IMG/VR virus record: IMGVR_UViG_3300012005_000003 | Span: 37,401-101,400 of that record | Direction: 5' to 3' (one strand) | DNA from: a virus | Length of the DNA stretch: 64,000 nt | Part shown: in pieces, positions 4,261 to 61,743 of the stretch | How positions within the stretch are numbered: the stretch's first letter is position 1 | Layout: each line of letters begins with the position of its first letter | The notes under the pieces: generated by a model | Database searches by the model: none | What the model was told of the DNA's origin: nothing | Seen by the model: the letters and a program-made list of their open reading frames with translations, nothing else | Position numbers and translations under genes: made by a program

Positions 4261-4722
4261 ATGATAACAAACTTTAAACAATTTAATGAAAATCTGTTGG
4301 TTCCACGCAACCTGGAAGGGCGCAATGAGAAGCTCAAGCAGATTAACATCAAGCTGCTTTCTCAGGAAGTGATAGATGATAATTTAGAACTTGATGAGTC
4401 ATTCATGGACATAGATCCTAAATTCGTGAAACTGAAAAAAATAAATGGCACTGTTACATTAACAGGAAATCATTGGACCGAAATTCCTGAATGGTTAAAA
4501 GATGTGAAAATAAGTGGAATTTTTGATTGTTCAGATAATAAGTTAACAACTTTAAAAAATTGTCCTCAGGATATAGGAGGAAGTTTTTGGTGTGCGTTCA
4601 ACAAATTAACATCTCTTGAAGGATGTCCTAAAATATTAAAAAAATCTATCCATTGTTTTGACAATAAAGTTAAATTAAAACTTCCAGATTATGTTGATTT
4701 AAGAGGTAATATTTACAATTAA
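4261..4722 (+). CDS. Capsid-tagged leucine-rich-repeat protein (copy 1)
   Basis: One of five paralogues here (others at 49939, 59855, 61216 and the C-terminus of 50420). It begins with the tag MITNFKQFNENLLVPRN, in which FNE could be the prohead-protease site. A conserved segment of about 60 residues follows, then about two units of a 21-residue repeat of the form NKLTSLEGCPxxIGGxFxC, and a closing segment LPDYVDLRGNIYN. The repeat resembles the Cys-containing leucine-rich repeats seen in other phage proteins. The second repeat is diverged (CPKILKKSIHCFDN). Leucine-rich repeats usually mediate protein binding; the target is unknown. This copy lies alone on the plus strand among minus-strand genes, which suggests a moved cassette. 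Confidence 0.8.
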   Translation: MITNFKQFNENLLVPRNLEGRNEKLKQINIKLLSQEVIDDNLELDESFMDIDPKFVKLKKINGTVTLTGNHWTEIPEWLKDVKISGIFDCSDNKLTTLKNCPQDIGGSFWCAFNKLTSLEGCPKILKKSIHCFDNKVKLKLPDYVDLRGNIYN

Positions 4723-4725
4723 AAT

Positions 4726-5448
4726 TTAATCTTCATCTGAAGATTCTCCGTTTTCCATTTCTTCTTCACTCTGAACTGGTTCTATGAAATCTCCTTGCTC
4801 TCTTTGTAACATCTCGGCTTTATCAGAAGCGTCTTCTTTCTCTTGTTGTCTTTTAATATTTCTATCTTTGACAAATTCATCCAACATATTATTCATTTCT
4901 TTCATGTTCAAGATGTTAGTCTTGTCTTGTTCTGTTACATCTTCAGGAGTCATGATGGCCATGAACATCTCTTTCATAGATCTGTAGTTATTCTCTATTT
5001 CCTTAAATTTTATAGATAGAGATTTTATATTATCTCGCATATCCTTCTGCAGATTTCCTACAACTTCTATCATACGAGCACTATCATCACCATTATCGAG
5101 TTTAGTCATTCCTGATACGTATAATCTTTTGGATTGTTCAACCATGAATTTCAAATATGCATAACCTTCGATGTCTTCTTCCATCTTATCGATCACCAAT
5201 TGGTTTTTCAATGCCTCTTCACCCAGATGCATCTTCACTACTTCGACTATCATAGATCTTGATTTTCCTATGTATTTTTCAAGATCACTTTCGTAATCGT
5301 AAACTTGAACATTGTCGCCCAATCCTGGTATATCATCAGCAGTAGGAAAAAACTCTTTAGGATCAGTTTTCACTGAATTTATGACTAGTTCATAGTCGTC
5401 CATGAGATCTTTTTTCTTCTTTTGGTTTTCTGTTGGTTCTTTTGGCAT
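4726..5448 (-). CDS. Acidic coiled-coil protein, probable virion assembly factor
   Basis: 240 residues with a lysine-rich start (ENQKKKKDLMDD), a mainly helical middle with a long charged coiled-coil-like region around residues 110-210, and a very acidic tail ending GESSDED. There is no catalytic motif. A TATATA box lies about 7 bases before the start. Small terminase subunits and scaffold-type proteins of T4-like phages have this general make-up, but I cannot assign it to either. Real gene, function unknown. Confidence 0.65.
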   Translation of the reverse strand: MPKEPTENQKKKKDLMDDYELVINSVKTDPKEFFPTADDIPGLGDNVQVYDYESDLEKYIGKSRSMIVEVVKMHLGEEALKNQLVIDKMEEDIEGYAYLKFMVEQSKRLYVSGMTKLDNGDDSARMIEVVGNLQKDMRDNIKSLSIKFKEIENNYRSMKEMFMAIMTPEDVTEQDKTNILNMKEMNNMLDEFVKDRNIKRQQEKEDASDKAEMLQREQGDFIEPVQSEEEMENGESSDED

Positions 5449-5470
5449 ATTGCTATATATCTAGTTTGAT

Positions 5471-5800
5471 CTAAACAGGCTGATAGTCGAAAGAAGAGTC
5501 CATCTTCTTGAGCATTGCAAATTTCTTGATTAGTTCTTTCTTTATGTTTGGAAGTTTCAATCTTTCAATAAAAGACAAATCCCATTTGATATTACCGTTA
5601 TCGCCAAATCTACAAATAGATTTTCCAAAAGTTCTTCCTGGATCTTTTTCTTCCGAATCATAAACTGTTACAGATCCAAGGTGTCCAACACACTTCATGC
5701 CGTGTTTCGATAGCTCTGAAGCGAGTTCTATCAATCTCTGAGCCATGAAATCATTTCTTCTTTCATTGATAAATGTTTCATAGGTCTTAATAGTTTTCAT
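5471..5800 (-). CDS. Capsid-tagged hypothetical protein
   Basis: 109 residues starting MKTIKTYETFINE, close in pattern to the T4 internal-protein tag MKTYQEFIAE. INE at residues 11-13 fits the (L/I)xE prohead-protease rule. The remainder is a small alpha/beta protein with no motif I recognise. It shares the TATATATAA region at 5806-5814 with the divergent tagged gene starting at 5834. Confidence 0.7.
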   Translation of the reverse strand: MKTIKTYETFINERRNDFMAQRLIELASELSKHGMKCVGHLGSVTVYDSEEKDPGRTFGKSICRFGDNGNIKWDLSFIERLKLPNIKKELIKKFAMLKKMDSSFDYQPV

Positions 5801-5805
5801 ATGCT

Positions 5806-5833: not shown

Positions 5834-6445
5834 ATGATCCATAATTTCAAACAGTTTCTTAACAAAATATACGAAGGCTACCAAGTTCCAAACGATGGTA
5901 GAAAATATAAATCTCTTTCTAGCGATGATATGAAAAAGATTGCAAGTAGAAGATTATCAGATTCTGATATGAAACATCCTAGTCATGATATTGAAACAGC
6001 AGAAGTTGAAAAGGCTCCAAAGCTTAAAACAATGCCAGGATTCAGAAGACTCATGTATAAGGATGCGGATCCTAAAAATATCAATGCAATCGCTTATGGT
6101 CCACTTGATATAGTTTTTGAACTAGATTTGGAAAACATACCAGTTTATTCTGAATATCTAGAATCAAAACATAAAAACAAAAATGGATATGGCATAGGAA
6201 AGGCTTTATATTATGGATGGTCAGCAGATCAATACAGTGATCAGCCTTATTTCTTTGTGACTTTATCTATAAACGATTCTAATGACAAACCAGCAGCAAA
6301 CTTCATTCCTGATGTTCCTGTAGACGAACATGAAATGTATGATCTTGTCTGGCAATTACTGGATGCGATAGATGATGTTAAAAGTGACAAAGAAGAATTA
6401 CTCAATCCTATATATGTTACTAGCGGTAGACTAACCGATAAATAG
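5834..6445 (+). CDS. Capsid-tagged hypothetical protein, about 203 aa
   Basis: The frame opens at 5801, but the ATG at 5834 gives MIHNFKQFLNKIYEGYQ, which matches the tag family. IYE|G is a possible prohead cleavage site, so I chose this start. The C-terminal 120 residues look like a globular alpha/beta domain (LDIVFELDLENIP, YYGWSADQYSDQPYFFVTLSI). No catalytic motif is recognised. It is followed by the early-type promoter of the next gene. Confidence 0.7.
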   Translation: MIHNFKQFLNKIYEGYQVPNDGRKYKSLSSDDMKKIASRRLSDSDMKHPSHDIETAEVEKAPKLKTMPGFRRLMYKDADPKNINAIAYGPLDIVFELDLENIPVYSEYLESKHKNKNGYGIGKALYYGWSADQYSDQPYFFVTLSINDSNDKPAANFIPDVPVDEHEMYDLVWQLLDAIDDVKSDKEELLNPIYVTSGRLTDK

Positions 6446-7806: not shown

Positions 7807-8352
7807 ATGAAACATATGAAACATATTAAACTTTTTGAAACATTCATTGCTGAATCCAAACAGTCATTTCCTGATATCCAGAAAGAGAAGAAGGAACTTG
7901 ACAAATTAGGAAGATATGAGATATTTGTTGGTAAACCTGAACAAGTGTCTAATTTTTTGAAAGAATGTGATCCTGACATGTTGAAATGGATCCAGGAGAT
8001 GTCTGATACACAAGTCAAAGTATATCTTTCGCCGAACAATAGATATCTTATGAGACCTATCGGAATCTTATCTTTAGAAAAAGGTTTATTGAAAGTTGAT
8101 TTAAATAAAGCAAGATTGTTAGAATCCATCAACTGGATGAGCATGGAAATACCCGCAGAATCAGAATGGGAAATAACAGATGGTAAATTCAAAGATTCCA
8201 AAGTGTATAAAATCAAGAAATTTGATAATTCTTACATTATACCTTCAGATAGAGTAAATTGGTTTAAAGAACATATTGGAACAACAGTTAGATTCAAATA
8301 CGATCCATCTGAAATGTTGATGACCAATATTCATATCAGTAAAAGAGCTTAA
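7807..8352 (+). CDS. Capsid-tagged hypothetical protein, 181 aa
   Basis: Starts MKHMKHIKLFETFIAESKQSF. Its IAE|S is exactly the T4 internal-protein cleavage pattern. The initial MKHMKHIKL is a small duplication of the tag start, also seen at 30827. The C-terminal domain (DGKFKDSKVYKIKKFDN, TTVRFKYDPSEMLM) looks like a small beta-barrel. Function unknown. The inferred location is inside the phage head. Confidence 0.7.
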   Translation: MKHMKHIKLFETFIAESKQSFPDIQKEKKELDKLGRYEIFVGKPEQVSNFLKECDPDMLKWIQEMSDTQVKVYLSPNNRYLMRPIGILSLEKGLLKVDLNKARLLESINWMSMEIPAESEWEITDGKFKDSKVYKIKKFDNSYIIPSDRVNWFKEHIGTTVRFKYDPSEMLMTNIHISKRA

Positions 8353-20061: not shown

Positions 20062-20871
20062 ATGATTATCAACTTTGAAAAATGGAAGTCTATAAATGAA
20101 AACAGAATTGTAGAAACTGATCATTTAATAGCATATTTAGAATCCATCAAAAAGATGGAACCGAGTAAATATAAATCTCATTCTGATCCAAATAAAGAAA
20201 TCGACAAAGTGAAAGATGAAGCTTTTCAAATGCTTTTATCCGAAGAAACAGAATATGATATGAAGGATATCATGATGGATTTTGCAACCTATGATTCACC
20301 TGAAAATGACGAAAATATGGAAGATGCAATATGGAATAAAAATTTTGTAGAATCTCTAGATGAAGATTTTGACCCTGAGAATGTTTACAGACAAGCTTCT
20401 TTCAAAGATCTCAAGTCTAATTTCTCTGAAGATGGATATCAAATGTTTTTAAAACACGCTAGAAATGTATTCGATTCTGAATCAGATGAGATGATTTCAA
20501 AAGTTGAAGAAAGTTATTCAGAAGATGGCTATATTGATATATGGAGAGCTGTAGTGTACAAAACAGAAGAGTTATCAAAGATCAAAAGTAAATATGCTGG
20601 AGTTGGAGTCTATTGGTCGTGGGAAGAAAATACAGCAGAATCTTACCATGCTGAATTCATAGGACATGATATCGTTTTGCATGGAAAGGCTACCACAGAA
20701 AGTATAGATTGGAAGAACACTCTATATAAAAATGTTTATATTCTGAAATATGAAAAAGAAATACTATTGAAAGACTATAGTTCTGTAATGATTGTAGGTT
20801 TTCATGATAGCAAAACAAACAAATACGTAAAATTAGACGAACCTATAGTTGTGAATACTGGAATATCTTAA
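20062..20871 (+). CDS. Capsid-tagged protein, ADP-ribosyltransferase-like C-terminus (tentative)
   Basis: 269 residues. The start MIINFEKWKSINENRIVET matches the tag family, with INE|N as a possible prohead site. The N-terminal 150 residues are acidic and helical. The C-terminal part has IDIWRAVVY, then GVGVYWSWEENTAESYHAEF and a beta-rich end. An Arg strand followed by a 'WSW' segment is seen in phage proteins annotated as putative ADP-ribosyltransferases. T4 Alt is the precedent for a packaged, processed ADP-ribosyltransferase. I do not see an unambiguous ExE motif. Confidence 0.5.
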   Translation: MIINFEKWKSINENRIVETDHLIAYLESIKKMEPSKYKSHSDPNKEIDKVKDEAFQMLLSEETEYDMKDIMMDFATYDSPENDENMEDAIWNKNFVESLDEDFDPENVYRQASFKDLKSNFSEDGYQMFLKHARNVFDSESDEMISKVEESYSEDGYIDIWRAVVYKTEELSKIKSKYAGVGVYWSWEENTAESYHAEFIGHDIVLHGKATTESIDWKNTLYKNVYILKYEKEILLKDYSSVMIVGFHDSKTNKYVKLDEPIVVNTGIS

Positions 20872-43809: not shown

Positions 43810-44127
43810 TTAAAATTTTTCATTGGATGTTGTTGTCAAATGATATCCAGATACTGTGTATAATATAGTACCATCTCCGAATTCAACATCGTAATATTCA
43901 TGATTCTTATCGCCTAATTCTGTATAAGTTGCTAAACATTCAATAATAGCTTTTTTACCATCAAGTTGATCTAATTTATGTTCCCACCAGTCTGAATCAT
44001 GTTCTTCTTCATCGAAACCAAATTCTGTAGCTCCGACTCCATTCAAATCAAATGTAACTTCAGTTCCATTAGGAATAGATTGTTGTTTTTTGTTTTCGTT
44101 TAAAAACTGTTTAAAATTATTTATCAT
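43810..44127 (-). CDS. Capsid-tagged small beta protein, 105 aa
   Basis: MINNFKQFLNENKKQQSIPN: MINNF subtype, LNE|N. The body is SH3-like (GTEVTFDLNGVGATEFGFDE, HEYYDVEFGDGTILYTVSGY) with an acidic loop. Function unknown. Confidence 0.7.
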   Translation of the reverse strand: MINNFKQFLNENKKQQSIPNGTEVTFDLNGVGATEFGFDEEEHDSDWWEHKLDQLDGKKAIIECLATYTELGDKNHEYYDVEFGDGTILYTVSGYHLTTTSNEKF

Positions 44128-44602: not shown

Positions 44603-44921
44603 CTATATATTATTATTATTTTTGTTGATAAGAGCATTAAGCTCTTTCATTATTGCATCATGTTCTGTCCTGCATTCCTTGGAATTATAAGGATTATATC
44701 CTCCGTTTCCCCATTCGGACCAGCATATCAGCAGTATTTCACCTTTTTCTAATTATCAGCAGCCATTACAAGCATTGATGCATCAGGTGATGTATATTTG
44801 CTATCATCTTCAGGATCCCAATTTGGTGATATTTATCAATGAATTTTCTGATCCTGCTTGCAAGATCTTTCATATATTCAATATTGTTTTCATTTAAGAA
44901 CTCTTTAAAATTGTTTATCAT
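44603..44921 (-). pseudogene. Tagged gene with at least two frameshifts
   Basis: Starts MINNFKEFLNENNIEYMKDL and RIRKFIDKY, then must change frame to read PNWDPEDDSKYTSPDASMLV and again to read EKGEILLICWSEWGNGGYNP and KECRTEHDAIMKELNALINK. All three segments are protein-like and colinear, so this is a decayed tagged gene. It sits next to the other broken copy. Confidence 0.65.
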
Positions 44922-44923: not shown

Positions 44924-45373
44924 TTATTTAATTCCTTTCCAAACTAAAATTGTAGTCATTCCTAAATTGTTAACAGCATTAGCTCTGTGAGTTCCATCGA
45001 TTATACAGAAATCTCTATCTATGATTATAGGAGGATATGTTCCAGTCTTTTCTATCTTTACTTCTATAGCTTCTACATGATCTTCGTCCTTGTACCATTC
45101 ATCCAGATCTAGTTTATCGATATCAATTTCTGTCAATTTATATCTTTTATATTTTTCAATCCTGTCTCCAAGATCTCCTTCATGAAAATCATCATAGTTC
45201 CTGTGTAAGCTTTGGGCATAATTGTAAATATCTGATTCATCAACAATATCTCCAATTTTAGCATTCTTCCAGCATAGATTCTGGTATGTTTCAGATCTTG
45301 ATTCGTTCATAACAAATTTCTGAATATTTGATATATTCTTATGAGTATTTTTAAATTGTTCGAAACTATACAT
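44924..45373 (-). CDS. Capsid-tagged ParB/Srx-fold nuclease-like protein
   Basis: 149 residues. N-terminus MYSFEQFKNTHKNISNIQKF with VMNE|S as candidate site. The C-terminal half has TGTYPPIIIDRDFCIIDGTH and RANAVNNLGMTTILVWKG, the ParB-like nuclease/sulfiredoxin core (PPI ... IxDGxHRxxAxxxLG...I). Possible DNA-binding, nuclease or CTPase activity. Packaging is inferred from the tag. Confidence 0.65.
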   Translation of the reverse strand: MYSFEQFKNTHKNISNIQKFVMNESRSETYQNLCWKNAKIGDIVDESDIYNYAQSLHRNYDDFHEGDLGDRIEKYKRYKLTEIDIDKLDLDEWYKDEDHVEAIEVKIEKTGTYPPIIIDRDFCIIDGTHRANAVNNLGMTTILVWKGIK

Positions 45374-45378: not shown

Positions 45379-45774
45379 TTATTTAATTTTATATTCATCA
45401 AACAACTGATAGACTTCTTTTGCTATGGTTTTAAACCAATTAACTTGTACATGATCTTCATCTTCTTCATCAGCATCAGCTTTCATCAAATCGAAAATAT
45501 AAGATAAATTTATGATTTTTTCAAAATCGTAATCTATGTTAAAGCTAGAAGGCAGACCGCTGATCCAATCAGCGAAACCTTTTATGTTTTTTTCTTTGTG
45601 ATATTCACTTTTAAAACAGTCAAACAAAAATTGTAATCTATCTTTATCTGATTTTAAAACAATGTTATAATTATCTGCATCGATAGCATTCAAAATATAG
45701 ATATCCAGAGCTTCTTTGTTTGTTGTCGATGTTGATTCATTGACGAATTGTTGAAATGTTTTGATATTTTTCAT
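45379..45774 (-). CDS. Capsid-tagged acidic protein, 131 aa
   Basis: MKNIKTFQQFVNESTSTTNK (VNE|S) followed by a helical body (DRLQFLFDCFKSEYHKEKNI) and the acidic stretch KADADEEDEDHVQVNW. It overlaps the gene upstream on the strand by one base. Function unknown. Confidence 0.65.
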   Translation of the reverse strand: MKNIKTFQQFVNESTSTTNKEALDIYILNAIDADNYNIVLKSDKDRLQFLFDCFKSEYHKEKNIKGFADWISGLPSSFNIDYDFEKIINLSYIFDLMKADADEEDEDHVQVNWFKTIAKEVYQLFDEYKIK

Positions 45775-46211
45775 TAATCTTTTTTAGTTTTTTCTTCTGT
45801 TTGTGGATTTGGATCTTCCATTCTGCCAAGATCCAAGATCGATTTCTTCATCTTGTAAAGAGTTTCATTTTCAGGAGTGCTCTTCATGATCTCAGTGAAT
45901 GCCATTTTTGTAAAATCTATACATTGTTTGATATCATCAAATTCGAATCTTTTGCTCAGATTGATATTTTTAGGTTTTGCAGTAAATGAAATATACCATT
46001 GGTTGCTATCGTCTTTGGACCAATGATTACCAGAAACATTATTAATAGATCCAATGTTTATATCATTAGCTAATATTTCATAACCTCTCAGACTATTACG
46101 AGCCACAACAGAAGCCAATCCAGTTGATGCTGAATATCTCTTGGTTTTGAATTTGTATAAATCTTTCTCTTTCTTTACTTCGTTCATGAAACCATCAAAA
46201 TTCTTTATCAT
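45774..46211 (-). CDS. Capsid-tagged protein, 145 aa
   Basis: MIKNFDGFMNEVKKEKDLYK: MNE|V site is atypical. Beta-rich middle (YEILANDINIGSINNVSGNH, WYISFTAKPKNINLS) and a Lys-rich tail. Function unknown. Two bases below the next gene in the array. Confidence 0.65.
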   Translation of the reverse strand: MIKNFDGFMNEVKKEKDLYKFKTKRYSASTGLASVVARNSLRGYEILANDINIGSINNVSGNHWSKDDSNQWYISFTAKPKNINLSKRFEFDDIKQCIDFTKMAFTEIMKSTPENETLYKMKKSILDLGRMEDPNPQTEEKTKKD

Positions 46212-46213: not shown

Positions 46214-46606
46214 TTAGAATATAACTTTTATTTTCTTTGTTTTGAAGTCTATATCGATCTCCTGTGGTTCTACAGTGCCACCGAATTCAAAATTGTTGAT
46301 CTCGGATTCAAACTGCCAGTTTGAATCAGCTTCAAATTCAAGTTCTTTTACATCATCTTTATCTTCTTCAGGAGTTGTTACTGTGTAATCACCGTAAACC
46401 TTTAATATTTCTACATCGAATGAAGATATGCCATGTTTTGTTTCATATATGTTCGTTTTCCATTCTATGGTCATGTCTAACGGATCAACATATTGTTCTC
46501 CTTCTACAGGTTTATTGTAAAGATTAACAAATCTATAGCCAAGCTTAGTTTTGAAATTATCAGTTGTGTTAGATTCATTTAAGAATTTATTGAAATTTTT
46601 GATCAT
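46214..46606 (-). CDS. Capsid-tagged beta protein, 130 aa
   Basis: MIKNFNKFLNESNTTDNFKT: LNE|S. Beta sandwich-like body (PLDMTIEWKTNIYETKHGIS, SFDVEILKVYGDYTVTTPEE). Function unknown. Confidence 0.65.
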   Translation of the reverse strand: MIKNFNKFLNESNTTDNFKTKLGYRFVNLYNKPVEGEQYVDPLDMTIEWKTNIYETKHGISSFDVEILKVYGDYTVTTPEEDKDDVKELEFEADSNWQFESEINNFEFGGTVEPQEIDIDFKTKKIKVIF

Positions 46607-49204: not shown

Positions 49205-49924
49205 TTAAATACCTAAAACTTTTCTTATATTACTGATTTTGGATTTTATCTGTGCATCCATGGCATCGTAAAGTTCTACTTTACCATCATCAAAGATTGC
49301 AAAAGCTAACTTGTACCAATCTTTATTACCTCCTGACAATTTATCAAGTTCCTCTCTCATTTTTTCATTTCTTACTAGAACATAATAAAATGTTACATCT
49401 CTTTTGAAAAAATAATCATTGAAATGTGAATTGTTTTTGTATGTTGTGCACCATGCGCTGTCACAATCGTTATTTCTGTGAGCAAATACAGTAAGGCCTA
49501 ATTTTCTACTGGCTTCATGTGTGTTCGGACTTGCAATGTATAGATCTTTATCATCCTTTATAAGATCGTAATCATCTTCTAGCTCTTTCATTGATGCAGT
49601 ACCTCTGCTGTTCAATTCGTCTATATAAGATTTGAACTCATCTAATGATTTAAATGTACCTATGTCATTCTTTTCAGCTTTGCTTTTTCCTACTAAAAGA
49701 TCATATTCTTCTACATAAGATTTGATGCTATCAACAGCATAAGCTTCTTCAATGTACATCTTAGATAACCAACCTACATATTTTTTAGTCTTGGAAGGGT
49801 CTATAGCAATGATAGAATCTACAGTCTTTTGAGAAATCTTACCAGCTTTGATGTAAGCTTCTGCTTGTTTCTTGTTTTCGTTTAAATGGATGTTTTTCCA
49901 TTCATTCATGTTTGTTATGATCAT
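49205..49924 (-). CDS. Capsid-tagged protein with a WCTT domain, 239 aa
   Basis: MIITNMNEWKNIHLNENKKQ: tag with LNE|N. A helical middle leads to CDSAWCTTYKNNSHFNDYFF and VTFYYVLVRNEKM, followed by KDWYKLAFAIFDDGKVELYD. This CxxxWCTT...HFNxYF pattern recurs in other large phages, where its function is unknown. Possible catalytic Cys. Packaged cargo is inferred. Confidence 0.65.
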   Translation of the reverse strand: MIITNMNEWKNIHLNENKKQAEAYIKAGKISQKTVDSIIAIDPSKTKKYVGWLSKMYIEEAYAVDSIKSYVEEYDLLVGKSKAEKNDIGTFKSLDEFKSYIDELNSRGTASMKELEDDYDLIKDDKDLYIASPNTHEASRKLGLTVFAHRNNDCDSAWCTTYKNNSHFNDYFFKRDVTFYYVLVRNEKMREELDKLSGGNKDWYKLAFAIFDDGKVELYDAMDAQIKSKISNIRKVLGI

Positions 49925-49938: not shown

Positions 49939-50406
49939 TTAATTATTAAATTCACCTTTAAGTTTCACATAATCAGGAAGTTTTAATTCAACTTCATTCT
50001 CGCCACAATTAAGATCTCCTCCTATATTTTTAGAGCACCCATCCAAAGATATTAATTGATTAACACAACAATTAAAATTTTTTCCTACACTATGTGGACT
50101 ATTTTCCAATGACATTAATTGATTATGATTGCAATCAAAATCTCCTGTTATTTCAATATCTTTAAACCATACAGGAAATGTTGTCCAATCTTCTCCATCT
50201 AAATAAACATTACCTTTCACTTTCTTAAGCTTGACAAACTTAGCATCAACATCCATGAATGATGAATCAAGATTTAAAGGTCCTTCTATCACTTCCTGAG
50301 AAAGTAACTTGATGTTCATTTGCATTCTTTTTACTTTCCTCTCTTCAATGTTGCGAGGAACTAACAGGTTTTCATTTACGAATTGTTTAAAATTTGTTAT
50401 GATCAT
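49939..50406 (-). CDS. Capsid-tagged leucine-rich-repeat protein (copy 2)
   Basis: 155 residues. MIITNFKQFVNENLLVPRNI and the conserved 60-residue segment (LLSQEVIEGPLNLDSSFMDV) precede about two repeats (NQLMSLENSPHSVGKNF; NQLISLDGCSKNIGGDL) and the LELPDYVKLKGEF-type end. Its repeats are the most diverged of the set. It directly precedes the larger fused copy on the strand. Confidence 0.8.
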   Translation of the reverse strand: MIITNFKQFVNENLLVPRNIEERKVKRMQMNIKLLSQEVIEGPLNLDSSFMDVDAKFVKLKKVKGNVYLDGEDWTTFPVWFKDIEITGDFDCNHNQLMSLENSPHSVGKNFNCCVNQLISLDGCSKNIGGDLNCGENEVELKLPDYVKLKGEFNN

Positions 50407-50419: not shown

Positions 50420-52261
50420 TTAATTTTTAAATTGACCTTTCAATTTAACATAATTAGGAAGTTCTAATTCGCCTTTATTATTTTGGCAATAAAAATCTCC
50501 TCCTACATTTTCAGGACAACCTTCCAAAGTTGTTAATTCATTACTTGTACAACTAAAATTTCCTCCTATGTATTCAGGACATCCTTGCAAAGATGTTAAT
50601 TTGTTATTATAACATTGAAAACTTCCATTTATATTATCTGGACTTCCTTCCAGAGATGTTAAATCATTATATGAACAACCAAAATCTCCTCCTATCTTCC
50701 GTGGACAGTTTTTCAATGTAGTTAATTTATTATTATAACAATTAAAATCGCCATTTACTTCAACATCTTTCAGCCATGCAGGTATTTCAGTCCATTGTTC
50801 TCCTGTTAACCAAACATCTCCATTAACTTTTTTCAGTTTTACGAACTTTGGATCTATGTCCATGAAGGATTCATCAAGCTTAAGTTCTCCATCTATCACT
50901 TCCTGAGAAAGCAGCTTGATGTTAATCTGCTTGAGCTTCTCCTTGCGCCCTTCCAGGTTACGAGGAACTAACAGGTTTTCATTTACGAATTGTTTAAAGT
51001 TTGTTATGATTTTACTTTCTCCTAATTTATTTTGTGCTATATCATGTTTGATATCTTTAACGATATCGTTTATCTCTTTTGTTGCATTTTTATCTCCTGA
51101 TAAAATGTTCTTCATTATAGCATTAAACTCTTTAGCTGGTTTAGAAGATAAAACAGCTATAATATTATTTTTGTATTCTTCGTTTCTGCTATCGTATATA
51201 GCATCATTCAATCTCTGCCAGAATCCAGGCCCTAGTCTCAGAGCCATTCTTTCAGAAGCTAAAGAATCTGCAGCTTTTATAACTTTTGTTCTTTCTTCAC
51301 TTGATAATGAATCATGTGACATCAATAATTCTGTAACTCCTTTTGCCAATTCGTGAATCAGGAATGGAAACGATGTTGCAGTTACAATGATTTTTGGAGT
51401 ATCATCCTGAAGATCCAATTTTATTTTACCAACACTTGATTCTTCTCCTCCGAAGTTATCAGGAACTACCCAGTATCCGTATTCAGACATCACGCTTAAT
51501 ATAGAATACATATCTACTAAACCTGGATGAATCTTTTTAAGTCCATCAGAAATCAAATGATATGCATATGTAGTTTTTACTGCAGAACCATGAATAAGAC
51601 TGTTGATGAATTTTCTCTTTTCCACTTCAAGCTCCAAACCAGTTAAATCATCTGCTATTTCTTCTGCATCTTCATCGTCTATGTCAGATAATGAAATCTC
51701 ACCATGTTTTATCATCTTGGCTTCGAAATCTACATCATCTTCTGATATATTAAATTCTTTACAGATAAGATCTATTGCAAGTTTTTCCAAATCTTCTATA
51801 TGATCAGCTTCTATCTCGACAACTTCATTGTAAACTTTCATCAACAACATCTGAAGATCCATCATATTTTCTATATCAATATGTTTGTCGTGTACATATG
51901 ACTGTAACTTATCAACTATCTCTTTGAATCTCTCATCAGCTATAATCTTATCAAAATCTTCATTTGGATAAGCTGGGTTTTTTGCCAAACTGTGAGTTTT
52001 AGATTTCAAAGATTTGTCTATATCAGAGTGTCTCTTGTGAGACATAGCTTCGTTTAAAACTTCTGATATAAGCTTGTATGCTTTTGGCTTTGGAGATTCT
52101 TTTGGATCTCTTTTTCCAGGTTTGAATGGATTGATCGAAGGCTTAGTTGCAGGTTCTGCAATCTTTGGTTCACTTGGAGCAATCAAAGGTTGAGGCTCTT
52201 TTGTGTTCTTTTCGTTTAATCTCTTTTTAAAGTTTGTAAAATCTGATAATTTTTTAAACAT
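50420..52261 (-). CDS. Prohead-core-like protein fused to a leucine-rich-repeat cargo domain
   Basis: 613 residues. Residues 1-416: tag MFKKLSDFTNFKKRLNEKNT (LNE|K), a Pro-rich acidic linker with SEVLNEAMS as another site, helical regions and a conserved domain with HPGLVDMYSILSVMSEYGYW and FPFLIHELAKGVTELLMSH. From about 418 a complete second tag appears internally, IITNFKQFVNENLLVPRN, followed by four 21-residue leucine-rich repeats. The join is in-frame without a stop. Position near the portal suggests a core or internal head protein, as T4 gp67/gp68 lie between gp20 and gp21. Protease action at VNE|N would release the repeat domain. Confidence 0.75.
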   Translation of the reverse strand: MFKKLSDFTNFKKRLNEKNTKEPQPLIAPSEPKIAEPATKPSINPFKPGKRDPKESPKPKAYKLISEVLNEAMSHKRHSDIDKSLKSKTHSLAKNPAYPNEDFDKIIADERFKEIVDKLQSYVHDKHIDIENMMDLQMLLMKVYNEVVEIEADHIEDLEKLAIDLICKEFNISEDDVDFEAKMIKHGEISLSDIDDEDAEEIADDLTGLELEVEKRKFINSLIHGSAVKTTYAYHLISDGLKKIHPGLVDMYSILSVMSEYGYWVVPDNFGGEESSVGKIKLDLQDDTPKIIVTATSFPFLIHELAKGVTELLMSHDSLSSEERTKVIKAADSLASERMALRLGPGFWQRLNDAIYDSRNEEYKNNIIAVLSSKPAKEFNAIMKNILSGDKNATKEINDIVKDIKHDIAQNKLGESKIITNFKQFVNENLLVPRNLEGRKEKLKQINIKLLSQEVIDGELKLDESFMDIDPKFVKLKKVNGDVWLTGEQWTEIPAWLKDVEVNGDFNCYNNKLTTLKNCPRKIGGDFGCSYNDLTSLEGSPDNINGSFQCYNNKLTSLQGCPEYIGGNFSCTSNELTTLEGCPENVGGDFYCQNNKGELELPNYVKLKGQFKN

Positions 52262-52333: not shown

Positions 52334-52945
52334 TTAGTCTTTTTTGGTTTTATCTGATATATCAGCTGGATCCGTTCCTTCAGGAACGTTATCAACTATA
52401 TCAACGAAAGTTCGGTTGTAAATAGCCGCTTCCTTTTCAGAATATGAATCCTGTAATGCTTTGATGAAAGCTTTTGGAGTCTTAGGATCTTTGTTTATTT
52501 TTTTATTCCATGAATTACCAATTTCCAAAGTGTAACCGAAATAATTGATCATATCTACTAAAGTTCCTATGACATATTTAGTTCTGCTACCATTTCTGCT
52601 AGATTCCACTTTAACTATGAAAGATTTATCCATTTTTGCTTCTAACACTACTTCAATTCCTTCTTTGACATTTTCCTTCTTAGCTTGTTTCAAAGCATCA
52701 TCAAATATGTTTTTTTCAGGATTGATATTTGCAACAAATGCCAACATGCCTACAACTTCTTTCTCGTTGTCATCTGTAGCCTTCATTAAGGCATCGTAAA
52801 GTTCTTTACCAGTCTTGAAAGATCCTGAAACAGTTTCATCTTCTTTCAATCCTAACAATTTGTGCATTTTACCTTGTTTAGGCTTAAATTTATCAGAAAA
52901 GAAGTTTTTCTTTTCATTAACAAAATCTTCAAATCTTTTGATCAT
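52334..52945 (-). CDS. Capsid-tagged protein next to the portal gene, 203 aa
   Basis: MIKRFEDFVNEKKNFFSDKF (VNE|K), a small helical domain (GKELYDALMKATDDNEKEVV) and beta segments (EVVLEAKMDKSFIVKVES; KYVIGTLVDMINYFGYTLEI). Its place directly after the portal gene suggests a prohead-core or internal structural protein. No family recognised. Confidence 0.65.
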   Translation of the reverse strand: MIKRFEDFVNEKKNFFSDKFKPKQGKMHKLLGLKEDETVSGSFKTGKELYDALMKATDDNEKEVVGMLAFVANINPEKNIFDDALKQAKKENVKEGIEVVLEAKMDKSFIVKVESSRNGSRTKYVIGTLVDMINYFGYTLEIGNSWNKKINKDPKTPKAFIKALQDSYSEKEAAIYNRTFVDIVDNVPEGTDPADISDKTKKD

Positions 52946-52979: not shown

Positions 52980-54632
52980 TTAAGAAGCTGGTTGTTCAGG
53001 TTGTTCAGGTTGTTCTGCTGGAGCTTCTGCAGCTGGAGCTTCTGCAACCGGTTCTTCACCAGCTGGTTCTGCAGCTATTTCCTCGGTTGGAACTTGTCCA
53101 AGTTTTCTCATTTTCGCTTTTTTGTTCTCTTCTATCTCAATATCAGTCAGTTTTAAAATCCTCTTGATCAAGTAATCTATATCGAAGTATGACTCTGGAG
53201 CTTCTTTTGGAATATTGGTTAATAGATTTGCAAGAATGTTTGCTCTCTTTTCCAAGATACCAATCTCTTTCCACTCTTCGAACATGTTGTTCTGATTGAA
53301 ACGAACATTGATAGAATTTATAAAAGAAGCATCGTTCTTCAATTCTGGAAATTCTAATAAAGTCTGTATGATCAAAGGTTTCACAATGATCTCTTTGAAC
53401 ATAGCTCTCAATCTGGATACAAAATTAGTAAATCTCATTTCATCACGAGTCACCTCTGATGCATCAGAGAATATGTTACCACCACCAGTTGAGCCATCAA
53501 GACGTGATGCCGGAACTTTTGAACTTCTCTTCAGAGCTCCCATGAACCAGTTCAACATGGATTCTTCGTTAAGATCTGCCGTATCTGGTTTTATCATTTC
53601 TATACTAGGAGTTCCAGATTCAGATTCAGGAAACCACCATTGTTTACTGAAAGGTATATGAGCTGAACCATTGATTGATACTGTTCCCATTTCATCATTA
53701 AATGATACTTCATCTTTGTAATCAGCTATCAACTGTCCTATCTCTTCCTCTGCTCTGGTTTTTGATAAACCTCCAACAGGGATGATGAACTTCTGATACA
53801 TTGTAGCATTCATGATATTGAACATGATACGAGACTGTTCTATCAATTTCAACTGATTGTAAGGCCGTATTAAATTCTCAACATAACTGGTTTCGAAAAT
53901 ACCAATGCTGTTGTTTCCAGAATATGCCAGATATATGATAGAAGAATCCAACATGATTTTTCTATTTTGTATATCGTTAGGATGTTGTATCCATACTTTC
54001 TTTCCTGACATAGGTTCTACCGCAGGAACCAGTGTTGCAGGATCCAACATTTTTATATCTATGATCACCTTCTGTCTGTCATCGTATACAATCTCGAAAG
54101 CCAAGTAACCATCGACAATGAATTGTCTGAAATAGTTCCATGCTGTGATACCATCGTTAAATCCTAGTGTATTGTACACTTGTTCGAATATCTGATAATA
54201 ACGGTCTTTTACTTTCTTTGCTACATTCTCTTTGAGATCTACAGGGAAACAGAATTTTGATCCATCGTCATAATCTATTGCATCATCACAAACTATTGTG
54301 ATATACTCACTGATCTCACCTTTGACAGAATACTGTCTCAATATCTTCTGTTTTTCAGTATATGCAAAATTCAAAAATGCAACAGATTTCTTTTCTAGAA
54401 CTTTAGAAACAGCTCTTCTTGAAAAAATATCATACATGCTACCAGATGTAGCAAGAGTATTAGGATCTTCATTTATTCCAGTTGCACTAGAATTCTTGAG
54501 GATCATATCATCGTATTTCATACCCCAGTTCCATGAGGAAAGATCTCTCAATACTTTATTGTAGAAAGATTTATTGCCTATGTTACTAGGTGAGTACTGT
54601 ATCTGACGATATGGGTTTGCTGATCCTGCCAT
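52980..54632 (-). CDS. gp20: Portal protein, T4 gp20 family
   Basis: 550 residues (T4 gp20 524). Core motifs: WNYFRQFIVDGYLAFEIVYD, LDPATLVPAVEP, EQSRIMFNIMNATMYQKFII, the PVGGLSKTRAEEEI region, and KVPASRLDGSTGGGNIFSDA with the following EVTRDEMRFTNFVSRLRAMF. These are the conserved wing and stem segments of T4-type portals. The C-terminus is an unusual Ala/Glu/Pro tail (EEPVAEAPAAEAPAEQPEQP). The dodecamer forms the DNA-packaging vertex. Confidence 0.9.
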   Translation of the reverse strand: MAGSANPYRQIQYSPSNIGNKSFYNKVLRDLSSWNWGMKYDDMILKNSSATGINEDPNTLATSGSMYDIFSRRAVSKVLEKKSVAFLNFAYTEKQKILRQYSVKGEISEYITIVCDDAIDYDDGSKFCFPVDLKENVAKKVKDRYYQIFEQVYNTLGFNDGITAWNYFRQFIVDGYLAFEIVYDDRQKVIIDIKMLDPATLVPAVEPMSGKKVWIQHPNDIQNRKIMLDSSIIYLAYSGNNSIGIFETSYVENLIRPYNQLKLIEQSRIMFNIMNATMYQKFIIPVGGLSKTRAEEEIGQLIADYKDEVSFNDEMGTVSINGSAHIPFSKQWWFPESESGTPSIEMIKPDTADLNEESMLNWFMGALKRSSKVPASRLDGSTGGGNIFSDASEVTRDEMRFTNFVSRLRAMFKEIIVKPLIIQTLLEFPELKNDASFINSINVRFNQNNMFEEWKEIGILEKRANILANLLTNIPKEAPESYFDIDYLIKRILKLTDIEIEENKKAKMRKLGQVPTEEIAAEPAGEEPVAEAPAAEAPAEQPEQPEQPAS

Positions 54633-55953: not shown

Positions 55954-56457
55954 TTACTCTTTGATTCTGTTTAAGTGTTTCTCAGTGATGATGTAGAATT
56001 CAAGATCTCTTGCTTTGCAATATTCTTTAGCTCTCTCCCATTTGTATACATTTTTTGTATATGTCTTGATCTGGTATTCGAACGATTCCAGTTTTTTAGA
56101 ATTTGCATTCTTTGGCAACACTGGCGGCTTCGTTTCGTTCAGAGGTTTAACTTCCAACACCATGCGTTTGAATTTGTCTGGGTTGCCGTCTATACACATT
56201 TCAACATAGAAATCAGGATAATACCTGTGAGGTTTACCCATCATGTCGTTATATTTGATCTCTATGAATTCAGCACCCCATCTTGCAACTTTTCCTGTAC
56301 CTGATAAATAATCCAACCATATCATGATCCTTTTTTCCCAGGATGATCTGAAATACAAACCACCTTCATTGTTCAGTTTGATCACCTTGTTTTTGTTCTG
56401 TGGTGTATACAGTCCTTGCTGGTAGTTACCTCTCTGTGTCGGTTTACTATTAAGCAT
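55954..56457 (-). CDS. gp4: Head-completion nuclease, T4 gp4 (50) family
   Basis: 167 residues. QGLYTPQNKNKVIKL, YFRSSWEKRIMIWLD, KPHRYYPDFYVEM and VLEVKPLNET supply the PD-(D/E)xK/TnsA-like residues: Glu of RSSWEK, Asp of PDF and ExK of LEVKP. T4 gp4 is required to finish heads after packaging. All key residues appear intact, in contrast to the copy at 15073. Overlaps the 2H-phosphoesterase gene by 8 bases. Confidence 0.85.
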   Translation of the reverse strand: MLNSKPTQRGNYQQGLYTPQNKNKVIKLNNEGGLYFRSSWEKRIMIWLDYLSGTGKVARWGAEFIEIKYNDMMGKPHRYYPDFYVEMCIDGNPDKFKRMVLEVKPLNETKPPVLPKNANSKKLESFEYQIKTYTKNVYKWERAKEYCKARDLEFYIITEKHLNRIKE

Positions 56458-57121
56458 TTAATACATAATGGAATTTCTGTTTGTCTGCTGTAGAATAAGT
56501 GACGTCTTTTATATCTTCTATAGTGATGACGTCTTTAAATTTCTTTAAATATTTTTCACCAGTTCCTTTCAAGCAATAAGCCAATGTGATATGAGGAACA
56601 TACGCATCGTAATCTGATTTATAAGGAAACTCTTTCAATTCTTCATGAAGAGCTATAAGTTCTTCAGAAGGTATGACTGCGATCTTGACAACATCGAATT
56701 TCTCATTATCGAACATGCTGATTTCTGAAATCTGAACTGTGAAAGGTTCATACTGCATGATCACTTTTTCTACATCTTCTGGAGTTGCTGCATCTTCATC
56801 ATCTTGTTCAGAAACCAAACCGTACAAAGCTGTTATATGGACATCGTCCTGTTTTCCAAATCTGTTCGGGTTTTCAGGATCGTTGTATAAATCTTCATCA
56901 GATATCTCGTCTTGCATCTTTCTGATTATATCTATAGAGTCGCCATTTGTGACATCCAACATCACACATCCGTAACTGTATTTTGCTTTCTCCTCTTTTC
57001 CTTCGTTTAGAAAAATATGATCAGCAATACCAATACGACCTTTTTTATGAATAGTGTTCGAAGCTTCTAAAATTTTAGAAGCTAAAGATCTTTGTTTTAG
57101 AAACCCTTTGAAATCTAACAT
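56450..57121 (-). CDS. Capsid-tagged 2H (LigT-like) phosphoesterase
   Basis: 223 residues. The tag region MLDFKGFLKQRSLASKILEA has ILE|A, and a second site, FLNE|G, follows at residue 40. The body has two HxT motifs, DVHITALYG (residues 95-97) and YVPHITLAYC (177-179), spaced as in 2H phosphoesterases, with EELKEFPYKSDYDAY before the second. The family cleaves 2',3'-cyclic or 2'-5' linked nucleotides. T4 Acb1 is a 2H enzyme that destroys CBASS signals. Processing and anti-defence use are inferred. Confidence 0.8.
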   Translation of the reverse strand: MLDFKGFLKQRSLASKILEASNTIHKKGRIGIADHIFLNEGKEEKAKYSYGCVMLDVTNGDSIDIIRKMQDEISDEDLYNDPENPNRFGKQDDVHITALYGLVSEQDDEDAATPEDVEKVIMQYEPFTVQISEISMFDNEKFDVVKIAVIPSEELIALHEELKEFPYKSDYDAYVPHITLAYCLKGTGEKYLKKFKDVITIEDIKDVTYSTADKQKFHYVLNA

Positions 57122-59769: not shown

Positions 59770-59854
59770 TTGATATATTTATTTTTTGTACCTATTCAGG
59801 CTTTTGTGATAGTATATATTTAAAAAATCTAACCCTTTTTTGCTAATTCTGATT

Positions 59855-60379
59855 TTAATTTATAAATTTACCTTTTAAATCAACATAATCTGGAAGTTCC
59901 AATTTATATTTGTTTCCATAACAATAAAAATCTCCTCCTATATTTTCAGGACATCCTTCCAGAGATGCTAAATTGTTATAATAACAATCAAAATCACCTC
60001 CTATATTTTCAGGACATCCTTCCAGGGATATTAATCTATTTCTAGCGCACTTAAAACTTCCTCCTATTTCTTTTGGGCAGTTTTTCAGTGTTGTCAATTT
60101 ATTACCTGAACAACTAAAATTACCATTTACTTCAACATCTTTCAGCCACTCAGGAATTTCAGTCCATTCTAATGACGATAACCGAATATTACCATTCACC
60201 TTTTTAAGTTTTACGAACTTTGCATCTATGTCCATGAAGGATTCATTTAGCTCTAAATCTCCATCTATCACTTCCTGAGAAAGCAATCTGATGTTCATCT
60301 GTTTACGTTTTACATGTCTTTCTGCAAGGTTGCGTGGAACCAACAGGTTTTCATTGAATTGTTTAAAGTTTGTTATCAT
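59855..60379 (-). CDS. Capsid-tagged leucine-rich-repeat protein (copy 3)
   Basis: 174 residues. MITNFKQFNENLLVPRNLAE, the conserved segment (SQEVIDGDLELNESFMDI), three 21-residue repeats (NKLTTLKNCPKEIGGSFKC; NRLISLEGCPENIGGDFDC; NNLASLEGCPENIGGDFYC) and the end LELPDYVDLKGKFIN. The last two repeats are almost identical, pointing to recent unit duplication. TATATAGATC precedes the ATG directly. Confidence 0.85.
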   Translation of the reverse strand: MITNFKQFNENLLVPRNLAERHVKRKQMNIRLLSQEVIDGDLELNESFMDIDAKFVKLKKVNGNIRLSSLEWTEIPEWLKDVEVNGNFSCSGNKLTTLKNCPKEIGGSFKCARNRLISLEGCPENIGGDFDCYYNNLASLEGCPENIGGDFYCYGNKYKLELPDYVDLKGKFIN

Positions 60380-60391
60380 GATCTATATATT

Positions 60392-61213
60392 CTATGCAGG
60401 ATCTGTGTTCAGATGATCTGTTGATAAATTATCAGGATTTCCGTATTTGATATAAGTATCCCATTGGACTCTCTTGTTTGCCAAAAAGAAATGCGTGCCA
60501 AATACTCCTGGAGCTGTAATATTTTCTTTTCCTGATAATAATGCCTGCATTGAAGCCAAAGATCCATTGTCACCTAGATCCATTGCTGGAAAAACACTCT
60601 TCACTTCGAAAGAATATTTGATAGCTATTTTGTTATCAGAAGACATGTTACTTTCTCTTGGAATAGTCATTTCTATACCTTCAGGTTGCTGCATGATGCC
60701 TTTGATACTTATTCCTCTGTGGTCAAATTCTAGGTATTTGTAAACCTGTAAAATAGACTGTATCTTAGATATGGCAACAAGAACATCCCTTTCAGAAGAT
60801 AATTGTATTTCTAAACTAAAAGAACATGTGATTGGAATTGGAACCACCTTAGAATAAACTTTCAATATCTCACTCTCAGATTCGAGATTAGATCTGATCC
60901 ATACATTAGGATTTGCCATTTCACCAAAATTTGCAGCCACAGATTCCAAATAAATATGTCCTCTTGGTATGATATCAGTGTTAAGTTCAACTCTTTTATC
61001 AACAATATCATCAACAAATGAATCCATTAAAAACCTTTCATCTCCTGATATGCTATAATAGAAAGGGACTGTAACGAGACGATTTTCTTTCTTGAAACGA
61101 TTGATCCACCATCTCCTATCTTGTAGTTTGGCGATCACTGCGATTATGAGATCTCTATAATAGACATCGTCATAGTTCATTAAATGATCGATAGATAAAT
61201 TTTCTTGGCCCAT
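60392..61213 (-). CDS. gp15: Tail completion and sheath-stabiliser protein, T4 gp15 family
   Basis: 273 residues (T4 gp15 272). VTVPFYYSISGDERFLMDSF, DIIPRGHIYLESVAANFG, VPIPITCSFSLEIQLSSERD and VLVAISKIQSILQVYKYLEF follow the order of T4 gp15 (rVPitYaskehfm, iLPRinlhlvdf, ikmiYeLsiftr.eddmfqIvEqIL.yf.P), and IAIKYSFEVKSVFPAMDL matches the last conserved strand. In T4 it caps the tail and stabilises the sheath. It lies between two leucine-rich-repeat genes. Confidence 0.8.
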   Translation of the reverse strand: MGQENLSIDHLMNYDDVYYRDLIIAVIAKLQDRRWWINRFKKENRLVTVPFYYSISGDERFLMDSFVDDIVDKRVELNTDIIPRGHIYLESVAANFGEMANPNVWIRSNLESESEILKVYSKVVPIPITCSFSLEIQLSSERDVLVAISKIQSILQVYKYLEFDHRGISIKGIMQQPEGIEMTIPRESNMSSDNKIAIKYSFEVKSVFPAMDLGDNGSLASMQALLSGKENITAPGVFGTHFFLANKRVQWDTYIKYGNPDNLSTDHLNTDPA

Positions 61214-61215
61214 TT

Positions 61216-61743
61216 TTATTTATTTTTAAATTTACCTTTTAATTTTACATAATCAGGAAGTTCTAATTTAACTTTATTATCACTACACCAAAAATCTCCT
61301 CCTATATTTTCAGGACAACCTTTCAGAGATGTTAATTTGTTCCATGAACAATTAAAACTTCCTGCTATATTTTTAGGACATCCTTCCAGAGATGTTAATT
61401 CATTATTATAACACCTAAACTCTCCTCCTATCTTCTGTGGACAGTTTTTCAATATTGTTAATTTATTGTCTGAACATAAAAAACTTCCCAATATTTTCAC
61501 ATCTTTCAACCATTCAGGAATTTCTGTCCATTGGTTTCCTGTTAATGTAACATCGCCATTAACTTTCTTGAGCTTGACGAACTTAGCATCGATATCCATG
61601 AAAGATTCATCAATCTTCAAATCTCCATCAATCACTTCCTGAGAAAGTAATCTGATGTTCATTTGTTTGAGTTTCTCCTTGCGGCCTTCTATATTTCTAG
61701 GGACTAGTAAATTCTCATTTACGAACGTCTTAAAATCTTTCAT
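61216..61743 (-). CDS. Capsid-tagged leucine-rich-repeat protein (copy 4)
   Basis: 175 residues. The tag MKDFKTFVNENLLVPRNIEG differs from the MITNFKQF type but joins the same NLLVPRN segment. Three repeats (NKLTILKNCPQKIGGEFRC; NELTSLEGCPKNIAGSFNC; NKLTSLKGCPENIGGDFWC) and LELPDYVKLKGKFKN end. A tag swap beside a conserved body supports modular exchange. TATATAGATC precedes the ATG. Confidence 0.85.
   Translation of the reverse strand: MKDFKTFVNENLLVPRNIEGRKEKLKQMNIRLLSQEVIDGDLKIDESFMDIDAKFVKLKKVNGDVTLTGNQWTEIPEWLKDVKILGSFLCSDNKLTILKNCPQKIGGEFRCYNNELTSLEGCPKNIAGSFNCSWNKLTSLKGCPENIGGDFWCSDNKVKLELPDYVKLKGKFKNK

Follow-up and report, generated by a model that had tools for sequence, protein, structure and literature searches.

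The stretch of DNA analysed here (the window) covers 64,000 nucleotides, positions 37,401-101,400 of the 101.4-kb IMG/VR virus contig IMGVR_UViG_3300012005_000003, and it holds head genes like those of phage T4 together with a large set of genes whose products begin with nearly the same short peptide, called the tag below. Gene starts came from six-frame lists of open reading frames (ORFs) and the tagged set was curated by hand, giving 32 tagged genes among 106 ORF calls of at least 45 aa, 16 on the plus strand and 16 on the minus strand. The tag reads [F/Y]xxF[L/I/V]NE followed by S or N. It has two related shapes, MKHIKLFEQFLNE then S and MIKNFKQFLNE then S, with a common core: F or Y at position -6, F at -3, L, I or V at -2, mostly N at -1, and E at 0. 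A strict form of this core, [FYLW]xx[FYW][LIVMN][NAKQ][ED], fits 22 of the 32; eight of the ten variants have an xE at another spacing as judged by eye (for example NFKQF-NE, FESYSE and IHLNE), and two, at 5834 (NFKQFLNK) and 26788, lack a clear xE. A first-pass annotation of this DNA had spoken of about 35 tagged genes on both strands, with the same motif in the capsid protein (QLNE) and the protease (KLNE). Both motifs are present, and the count is fair once the capsid protein, the protease, the Acb1-like gene at 56450-57121 with its longer leader, and the gene at 41204-41686 are added to the 32. The head genes and tagged genes are as follows, the tagged products being regarded as candidate cargo of the head.

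38847..41078, minus strand: gp21-like prohead protease (residues ~1-235) fused to a scaffold; starts MKQVLIFDNTLEAMKLNE then S (PHROG 207 head maturation protease, E 1.2e-26)
37079..38761, minus strand: gp23-like major capsid protein (MCP); pro-region ends YAEYHQLNE then N (Pfam Gp23, E 7.2e-30)
52980..54632, minus strand: gp20-like portal protein (Pfam Portal_T4, E 6.7e-70)
52334..52945, minus strand: tagged, MIKRFEDFVNE then K; directly after the portal gene; probable core protein, with a tagged homologue in LR756504 at 312935 (MAIKKFNTFLNE)
50420..52261, minus strand: probable core protein, 613 aa; N-terminal FKKRLNE, internal LISEVLNE, and a complete internal tag NFKQFVNE then NLLVPRN and an LRR-like domain (fusion)
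41204..41686, plus strand: 160-aa protein with KVLGKLNE then A near its start; may be a head or core protein; PHROG and Pfam gave no match
56450..57121, minus strand: 2H phosphodiesterase/Acb1-like; 40-residue leader MLDFKGFL...HIFLNE then G (Pfam 2_5_RNA_ligase2 9e-15, Acb1 2.1e-7)
4261..4722, plus strand: candidate cargo, NLLVPRN LRR-like family, MITNFKQF-NE
5471..5800, minus strand: candidate cargo, MKTIKTYETFINE
5834..6445, plus strand: candidate cargo, MIHNFKQFLNK (variant, without Glu)
7816..8352, plus strand: candidate cargo, MKHIKLFETFIAE
20062..20871, plus strand: candidate cargo, MIINFEKWKSINE (variant)
22476..22877, minus strand: candidate cargo, MKPIKTFKQFESYSE (variant)
22882..23220, minus strand: candidate cargo, MKHINLFEQFLNE
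26314..26787, plus strand: candidate cargo, MIYKFKEFLNE; the LR756504 homologue starts MKYIKPFIFE
26788..27087, plus strand: weakly tagged candidate cargo, MKHIKSYINTDIRLFESFE
27260..28150, plus strand: candidate cargo, MKHIKLFEQFIND (Asp at the cut position)
28151..28753, plus strand: candidate cargo, MKHIKLYEQFVNE
28780..29325, plus strand: candidate cargo, MKHIKLFEDFNKE
29330..29830, plus strand: candidate cargo, MKHIKLYEEFSKTNE (variant)
29918..30559, plus strand: candidate cargo, MIKNFKQFLNE
30836..31138, plus strand: candidate cargo, MKHIKLFKDFLNE (paralogue of 42830)
41694..42329, plus strand: candidate cargo, MKHIKLFEQFLNE
42334..42813, plus strand: candidate cargo, MKHIKLYEQFVQE
42830..43138, plus strand: candidate cargo, MKHIKLFEQFINE
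43172..43759, plus strand: candidate cargo, MKHIKLYEQFLNE
43810..44127, minus strand: candidate cargo, MINNFKQFLNE
44363..44599, minus strand: candidate cargo, MIKNFNQFLNE
44766..44921, minus strand: candidate cargo, MINNFKEFLNE
44924..45373, minus strand: tagged ParB/nuclease-like protein, FEQF then FVMNE then S (PHROG ParB-like, E 1.1e-6)
45379..45774, minus strand: tagged phrog_11100 protein, MKNIKTFQQFVNE; profile match from residue 17
45774..46211, minus strand: candidate cargo, MIKNFDGFMNE
46214..46606, minus strand: candidate cargo, MIKNFNKFLNE
49205..49924, minus strand: candidate cargo, MIITNMNEWKNIHLNE (variant)
49939..50406, minus strand: candidate cargo, MIITNFKQFVNE, NLLVPRN family
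59855..60379, minus strand: candidate cargo, MITNFKQF-NE, NLLVPRN family
61216..61743, minus strand: candidate cargo, MKDFKTFVNE, NLLVPRN family

The tag is far more frequent at gene starts than within genes. A nine-column position matrix built from the 22 strict cores and scored leave-one-out gives at least 12.6 for 21 of them and 5.8 for the other, and a score of 16 is reached at one of 14,595 internal positions of window genes, which is the second tag inside 50420-52261. At a threshold of 10, 24 of the 106 window genes match near their start compared to 1.7 expected from the internal rate (an in-sample figure). A looser regular expression matches 29 of 106 N-termini, and among 169 internal Met blocks it matches 9 (odds ratio 6.7, p 4e-7). 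Applied to related phages the loose expression yields odds ratios of 0.8-3.1, significant in LR756502 (p 7e-15) and LR756504 (p 3e-4); as it is weak or unenriched in relatives, the matrix was used in its place. The commonest tag form, MKHIKL[FY]ExxFxNE, was also searched as an exact DNA pattern and occurs in at least 118 IMG/VR stretches and in none of 84,980 bacterial and archaeal genomes. This absence and the internal-Met and internal-position controls rule out chance or an artefact of start context.

The closest known counterpart of the tag is the capsid-targeting sequence (CTS) of T4. A tag profile was made from 32 tags (19 of the window, 13 of relatives, none from T4) and searched against 18 records. 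In the T4 genome (168,903 bases, read in six frames) just two matches reach E<=1, at 0.00106 and 0.00145, and these are the starts of ipII and ipIII, both of which read MKTYQEFIAE then A. IPI, which begins MKTFKEF...TITE then A and is cut further on, is missed. According to a review (PMC9026906), IPIII residues 4 and 7 matter for targeting and residues 8 and 10 for processing. These correspond to tag columns -6, -3, -2 and 0, at which the 22 strict tags have F or Y in 22, F in 22, L, I, V or M in 21 and E in 21, counts that are partly set by the core expression (column 0 allowed only E or D); I at -9 and N at -1 are kept as well. The tag and the CTS of IPII and IPIII therefore share the spacing of two aromatics, a hydrophobic residue and Glu, and they are similar in length (10-19 residues in T4, mostly 10-17 in the window). 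Both phages have a cognate gp21-like protease and place one tag before unrelated bodies, and at least one T4 cargo, IPI, is a counter-defence protein. The systems differ in scale, as the first-pass annotation had remarked in saying that the set far exceeds that of T4: some 32 genes within the 64 kb of the window, with 37 in the relative of 482 kb, compared to the handful in T4 (IPI, IPII, IPIII and Alt; PMC9026906). They also differ in their bodies, mostly acidic in the window and basic in T4, and in the protease, which is fused to scaffold in the window. Comparison of the 32 bodies with those of IPI-III (Alt left out) gave no significant BLASTP match (best E 0.029), and the window cargo, unrelated in body and mostly of isoelectric point (pI) below 6, is not made up of members of the IPI-III family.

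The tag behaves as a module. After removal of the first 16 residues, BLASTP clustering at 1e-3 sorts the 32 bodies into 27 clusters, with paralogues only in one five-member LRR-like family and one pair, so the tagged proteins are indeed otherwise unrelated, as first described. Conservation was measured on the 22 strict window tags and 136 IMG/VR tags (among the matches listed): information is 2.8-3.6 bits at E, 1.2-1.3 bits at the following residue (P1', S/N/A/K/G) and at most 0.6 bits, mostly below 0.3, from +2 onward, of which only the values after E are unbiased, since positions up to E were chosen by the IMG/VR pattern and partly by the window core expression. Where two tags share a core residue they use the same codon in 64% of pairs, close to the 56% expected from codon usage, which argues that selection acts mainly on the peptide. 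Some bodies also exist without the tag. The ParB/nuclease-like body of 44924-45373 has an untagged homologue in contig G001 that begins at the domain, the phrog_11100 body of 45379-45774 is untagged in an Escherichia, a Pseudomonas and a Vibrio phage, the three read out of 118 matching records, and the 2H family has an untagged homologue in Maribacter phage Molly_1. The tag is thus modular, sitting on unrelated bodies and missing from some homologues elsewhere. It also occurs inside a chain, since residues ~420-613 of 50420-52261 are a whole tagged NLLVPRN protein, tag included, joined to the end of another tagged protein. The tagged LRR-like paralogues are spread over the contig (4261-4722, 49939-50406, 59855-60379 and 61216-61743; L003, 6264-6794) and have weak LRR and phrog_21719 matches.

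A search for the tag across the contig and its relatives, proposed when the tag was first described, found matches in huge phages. In the remaining 37.4 kb of the contig the matrix matches once in 47 ORF calls (the loose expression twice, no enrichment). Out of sample, the matrix finds tags in 37 of 751 genes of G006, the 482-kb contig (1.2 expected), 27 of 289 in G009 (1.6), 13 of 149 in G010 (0.4), 22 of 944 in LR756504 (3.7), 18 of 994 in LR756502 (2.0) and 11 of 685 in LR756500 (1.2), where the tags read MKYIKEYxxFLNE amid different surrounding letters. Contigs G006, G009 and G010 entered through the tag pattern, so that the presence of tags in them was selected and their number was not, and a few of the genes counted outside the window will be wrong (0.2-3.7 per genome are expected). 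There is little or no excess in PTm1 (1 of 315, 1.1 expected), the available part of PAU (3 of 158, 0.9) and the fragments G001, G002 and G003 (1, 2 and 2 matches; 1.4, 0.2 and 0.4 expected). Profile matches at E<=1 number 65 in G006, 23 in G009, 21 in G004, 20 in LR745206, 19 in G005, 16 each in LR756501 and G011, 14 in G010, 13 in G008 and 4 in the short G007; MA9V-1 and Lak-B9 have one each, at E >=0.13. At 80 IMG/VR loci (among the matches listed), 136 distinct tagged ORFs fall into 87 unrelated body clusters. One matrix match, LR756504 213251-214366, is doubtful: its start, PFLNE, looks by eye like that of DegT-like enzymes (the 127 matrix matches scanned include one DegT).

Two further observations concern LR756504. 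A Glu/Gln-tRNA synthetase (263081-264682) has its domain from residue 41 behind a 40-residue extension that begins like a weak tag, FLKE then S (MNKKHLKKDYSDFLKES), and is a second doubtful matrix match. Three proteins (42825-43460, 619676-620284 and 628569-629207) have, some 10 residues before the end of the chain, a tag-like LF(K/E)EFYNET; C-terminal trimming is also described for T4 Alt (PMC9026906).

Most of the candidate cargo resembles nothing familiar. Thirty of the 32 tagged window proteins gave almost no matches against Pfam and PHROGs (50420 and 52334 were scanned separately), two frequent cargo families had no match at E<=0.001 in 50,697 phage records, and a tagged 2H protein had none at E<=0.01 among PDB sequences. 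The AlphaFold model of the commonest IMG/VR cargo family has a mean predicted local distance difference test (pLDDT) score of 58.2. Recognisable cargo in relatives includes a cytidylyltransferase-like enzyme (83 representatives scanned) and Tad3, 2H/Acb1-like phosphodiesterases and LRR proteins (127 matrix matches scanned). Tad3, an inhibitor of the Thoeris defence, occurs in 3 of 13 genomes and is tagged at all three loci (MKKIKLYEEFLNES, MKKVKLFEEFLAES, MKTVKLFEEFLAES). Acb1-like genes occupy 11 loci in 10 of the 13 genomes, above the family cut-off in 8, and start with [FYW]xx[FYW][LIVM]xE at 8 of the 11. The remaining three are a G006 gene with FxxF and no Glu, one in LR756504 with neither, and the window gene at 56450-57121, whose 40-residue leader has FxxF at its start and FLNE then G at its end, a longer version of the T4 IPI layout (FxxF and a later cut site). 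Taken together, 11 of 14 Tad3 and Acb1-like genes are tagged (p 3e-9 if one gene in ten were tagged), though several are close relatives and the independent cases are thus fewer than 14. The window's Acb1 domain scores 31.2 bits, above the curated cut-off of 27, but the 2_5_RNA_ligase2 match is stronger (55.5), so activity against CBASS (cyclic oligonucleotide-based antiphage signalling system) is a suggestion from sequence. T4 gene 57B (Acb1; L264, 3952-4410), a neighbour of ipI, begins MMEFKDFSTG, in which FxxF is spaced as in the tag and a cut site is lacking.

Two of the head proteins, the protease-scaffold fusion and the capsid protein, carry patterns like that of the tag. The closest capsid relatives in phage records belong to uncultured huge phages of 635-735 kb (50-56% identity), and a related protease is present at 15 of 16 MCP-bearing loci, the Lak-B9 locus having none. 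At most loci, PAU being an exception, protease and a long scaffold-like tail form one polypeptide, and the PTm1 and Molly_1 records already name a protease-scaffold fusion. The tail has 14-residue repeats such as NIAYSEYIAENLDK (YSEYIAEN-like, of the type YxxY[LIV]AE[NS]). With the scaffold motif defined as [FY]xx[FY][LIV][ANST]E outside the first 40 residues, the window fusion has 11 motifs from residue 265 to residue 605, of which nine follow one another without a gap at 14-residue spacing (~307-425), and only two others occur elsewhere in the window. The share of the motif falling in the fusion is 11 of 17 in LR756504, 11 of 22 in LR756502, 11 of 14, 10 of 11 and 11 of 15 in G001-G003 and 13 of 23 in G006; the protease protein has none of the 5 in PTm1 and lacks the single one present in the part of PAU covered. 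When the stretch bounded by the first and last motif is shuffled, an average of 0.02-0.04 motifs results. The tag matrix scores this stretch, itself picked on the basis of the data, at 6-9 standard deviations over shuffled versions in the seven genomes with repeats and at 3.7 in LR756500. Most repeats place Y and A at the positions of F and N in tags, and a single repeat therefore scores far lower than a true tag. In 17 of 18 non-T4 rows [ILM]xE then [NS] closes the capsid pro-region, four cultured-phage rows reaching the site only with gaps. Placing the T4 gp23 cut on the window MCP by alignment was set aside, the N-terminal part being unreliable and T4 FLTE out of register.

Because scaffold repeats and capsid pro-region both carry a tag-like motif, we propose that cargo carries, as its tag, a single copy of the scaffold repeat. 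The bearer would be built into the core as if it were scaffold and cut loose at the same kind of bond, which would give huge phages an open route for loading dozens of proteins. Many of these would be counter-defence proteins, so that immunity would be blocked before phage genes are expressed. We advance this tentatively, allowing it somewhat less than an even chance. In T4 the gp22 scaffold is likewise cut into pieces by the protease; there gp22 and gp21 are separate, whereas the window has one polypeptide with near-regular 14-residue repeats in the tag pattern.

We are confident, short of certain, that the shared start is a T4-type CTS serving as a general loading address of a huge T4-related phage. 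Judged on sequence, the tag qualifies as such by its N-terminal pattern, its key residues, its modularity and a gp21-like protease with like cut sites. The head-targeting and trimming that the first-pass annotation had read into the tag find support in the T4-free profile that reaches ipII and ipIII only, the end of conservation after E, the like pattern in protease-scaffold and capsid proteins, and the untagged homologues. It is very likely, on this evidence, that tagged proteins are packaged and cleaved, and by analogy with T4 they may also be injected. The tagged proteins would be made late, with the head genes; the [F/Y]xxF aromatics would dock them in the assembling core, probably in place of a scaffold repeat; and the scaffold-fused protease would cut after [L/I/V]xE at the tag, in the scaffold repeats and in the capsid pro-region, all of which have like sites. 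Freed cargo would then stay in the head with the DNA and, as in T4, pass into the next host, in which some of it probably blocks immunity early (Tad3 in relatives, Acb1-like proteins here and in relatives). The few tags without the cut-site Glu (5834, LNK; 27260, IND) might be packaged untrimmed. For 27260-28150, with Asp in place of Glu, this is our prediction from the T4 precedent, in which Asp at position 10 retains targeting and blocks processing (PMC9026906).

Late expression was considered from the upstream sequence. In LR756504, 18 of 22 tagged genes have ATATATA no more than 60 bases from their start, as do 125 of 633 untagged genes (p 1.7e-9), and in the window TAATATAT lies within that distance for 8 of 24 tagged versus 2 of 53 untagged genes (p 0.001), each being the best of many k-mers. 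Enrichment is weaker in LR756502 and G009, and the box is not the top k-mer in G006 and LR756500. TATATA within 25 bases precedes 9 of 32 tagged and 4 of 46 untagged window genes (p 0.026), and within 60 bases it precedes 8 of 8 protease genes and 7 of 8 MCP genes. The box fits late expression of tagged genes together with head genes. In several huge phages it lies mostly 24-42 bases ahead of the capsid and protease starts and is a candidate late promoter.

Several observations weigh against these interpretations. Some tags lack the cut-site Glu, as noted, and the bodies are mostly acidic (pI <6 in 22 of 32), T4 internal proteins being called basic in PMC9026906. The TATATA box also precedes 11-62% of untagged genes depending on the genome (from 54 of 507 in G006 to 52 of 84 in G001) and is therefore weak support as a late promoter. 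LR756500 (W05) has 11 tags by matrix, but its fusion holds 1 of 5 strict scaffold motifs, and the AlphaFold model of the protease-scaffold fusion is poor (mean pLDDT 43.7), the repeats being drawn as a long helix at low confidence. The tag profile has no match at E<=1 in KVP40, P-SSM2, HTVC008M, MaF61 or pT24, PTm1 has no match to profile A1, and Molly_1 has only 2 unconvincing matches to the expression in 209 ORFs; PTm1, pT24 and Molly_1 possess gp21/gp23-like genes despite having no convincing tags. Among the cultured relatives PTm1, pT24, PAU (part), MA9V-1, MaF61 and Molly_1, none has a convincing tag set.

The same facts can be read in other ways. If the tag were a docking peptide to scaffold or shell that is generally retained, its wearers would be assembly factors and not delivered cargo. 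The tags at 5834 and 27260 could be taken in this sense, as could the resemblance to scaffold repeats and the Asp mutant of T4, which targets and is unprocessed (PMC9026906). Retention sits poorly with a Glu in 21 of 22 strict tags (partly selected), with the unselected P1' preference and with the abrupt end of conservation after Glu, and the recognisable cargo (Tad3, 2H/Acb1-like, nucleotidyltransferase) does not consist of assembly factors; we regard this explanation as improbable.

Still less probable is a DNA-level gene-start cassette, spread by recombination or kept for expression and without a targeting role. Tagged genes are clustered (26314-31138 and 41694-46606), codons in the core are shared slightly more than expected and the upstream box is partly shared, all of which a cassette would explain. 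Yet identical residues use different codons almost as codon usage predicts, distant phages keep the same residues amid other letters (as in LR756500), and the profile finds the CTS of T4 ipII and ipIII. That the tag sends proteins to a different phage structure (a replication compartment or the cell membrane, for instance), with a convergent likeness to the T4 CTS, strikes us as scarcely credible: copies of the motif are gathered in the protease-scaffold fusion, a similar site closes the capsid pro-region and the sole T4 matches are internal head proteins, even though most window cargo is without known function, as this explanation would allow.

Loading by a T4-type CTS can also be set beside other systems. 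The inner-body and ejection proteins of phiKZ and SPN3US likewise belong to giant phages in which many head proteins are trimmed by the prohead protease and ejected. In SPN3US the propeptides are mostly long, several exceeding 100 residues and one of 20, with gp53 and gp54 sharing theirs (PMC5694885), whereas the window has one short interchangeable tag on dozens of genes, and the window tags are not propeptides of that long type. Phage P1, of a different phage group, ties the anti-defence proteins Dar and Hdf (counter-restriction) to its head, as PMC12810830 describes. CTS-like propeptides, and T4-like phages that load varied proteins with them, were already known (PMC9026906), as were giant phages with many trimmed head proteins (PMC5694885, PMC13282480). 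The literature searched (titles and abstract starts, most subscription papers lying outside its coverage) held no report of the window tag or of a large CTS set in huge phages, and the strings MKHIKLFE and MKTYQEFI did not occur in the text searched, with the same limit of coverage. As far as these listings show, what is new is one interchangeable T4-type tag on about a third of the window genes, its spread across huge phages, the tagged Tad3 and Acb1-like genes, and the likeness to scaffold repeats.

Some neighbouring genes complete the picture of the window. Directly beside the capsid gene, at 31937-36969, lie two adjacent DUF7487/homing-endonuclease genes and a 473-aa piece of a class I tRNA synthetase. 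Amid the tagged genes, 47277-48398 (minus strand) presumably encodes an IS605 OrfB/TnpB-type protein, which its start resembles, and 19474-20058 (plus strand) has an N-terminus, MLTVGLTGGIGSGKTTISK, that we take by eye to resemble dephospho-CoA kinase.

For huge phages, whose products mostly lack an assigned function, a tag in the first 15 codons would be a usable predictor of virion cargo, and the 136 distinct tagged ORFs at 80 IMG/VR loci (among the matches listed) form a list of candidates that can be searched, counter-defence proteins among them. A 2023 review (PMC9958956) calls it still mysterious how proteins are localized in the T4-type core. From the likeness between tag and scaffold repeat comes a testable proposal for the selection of core proteins in T4-type heads, which, if true, would explain how the T4 CTS works.

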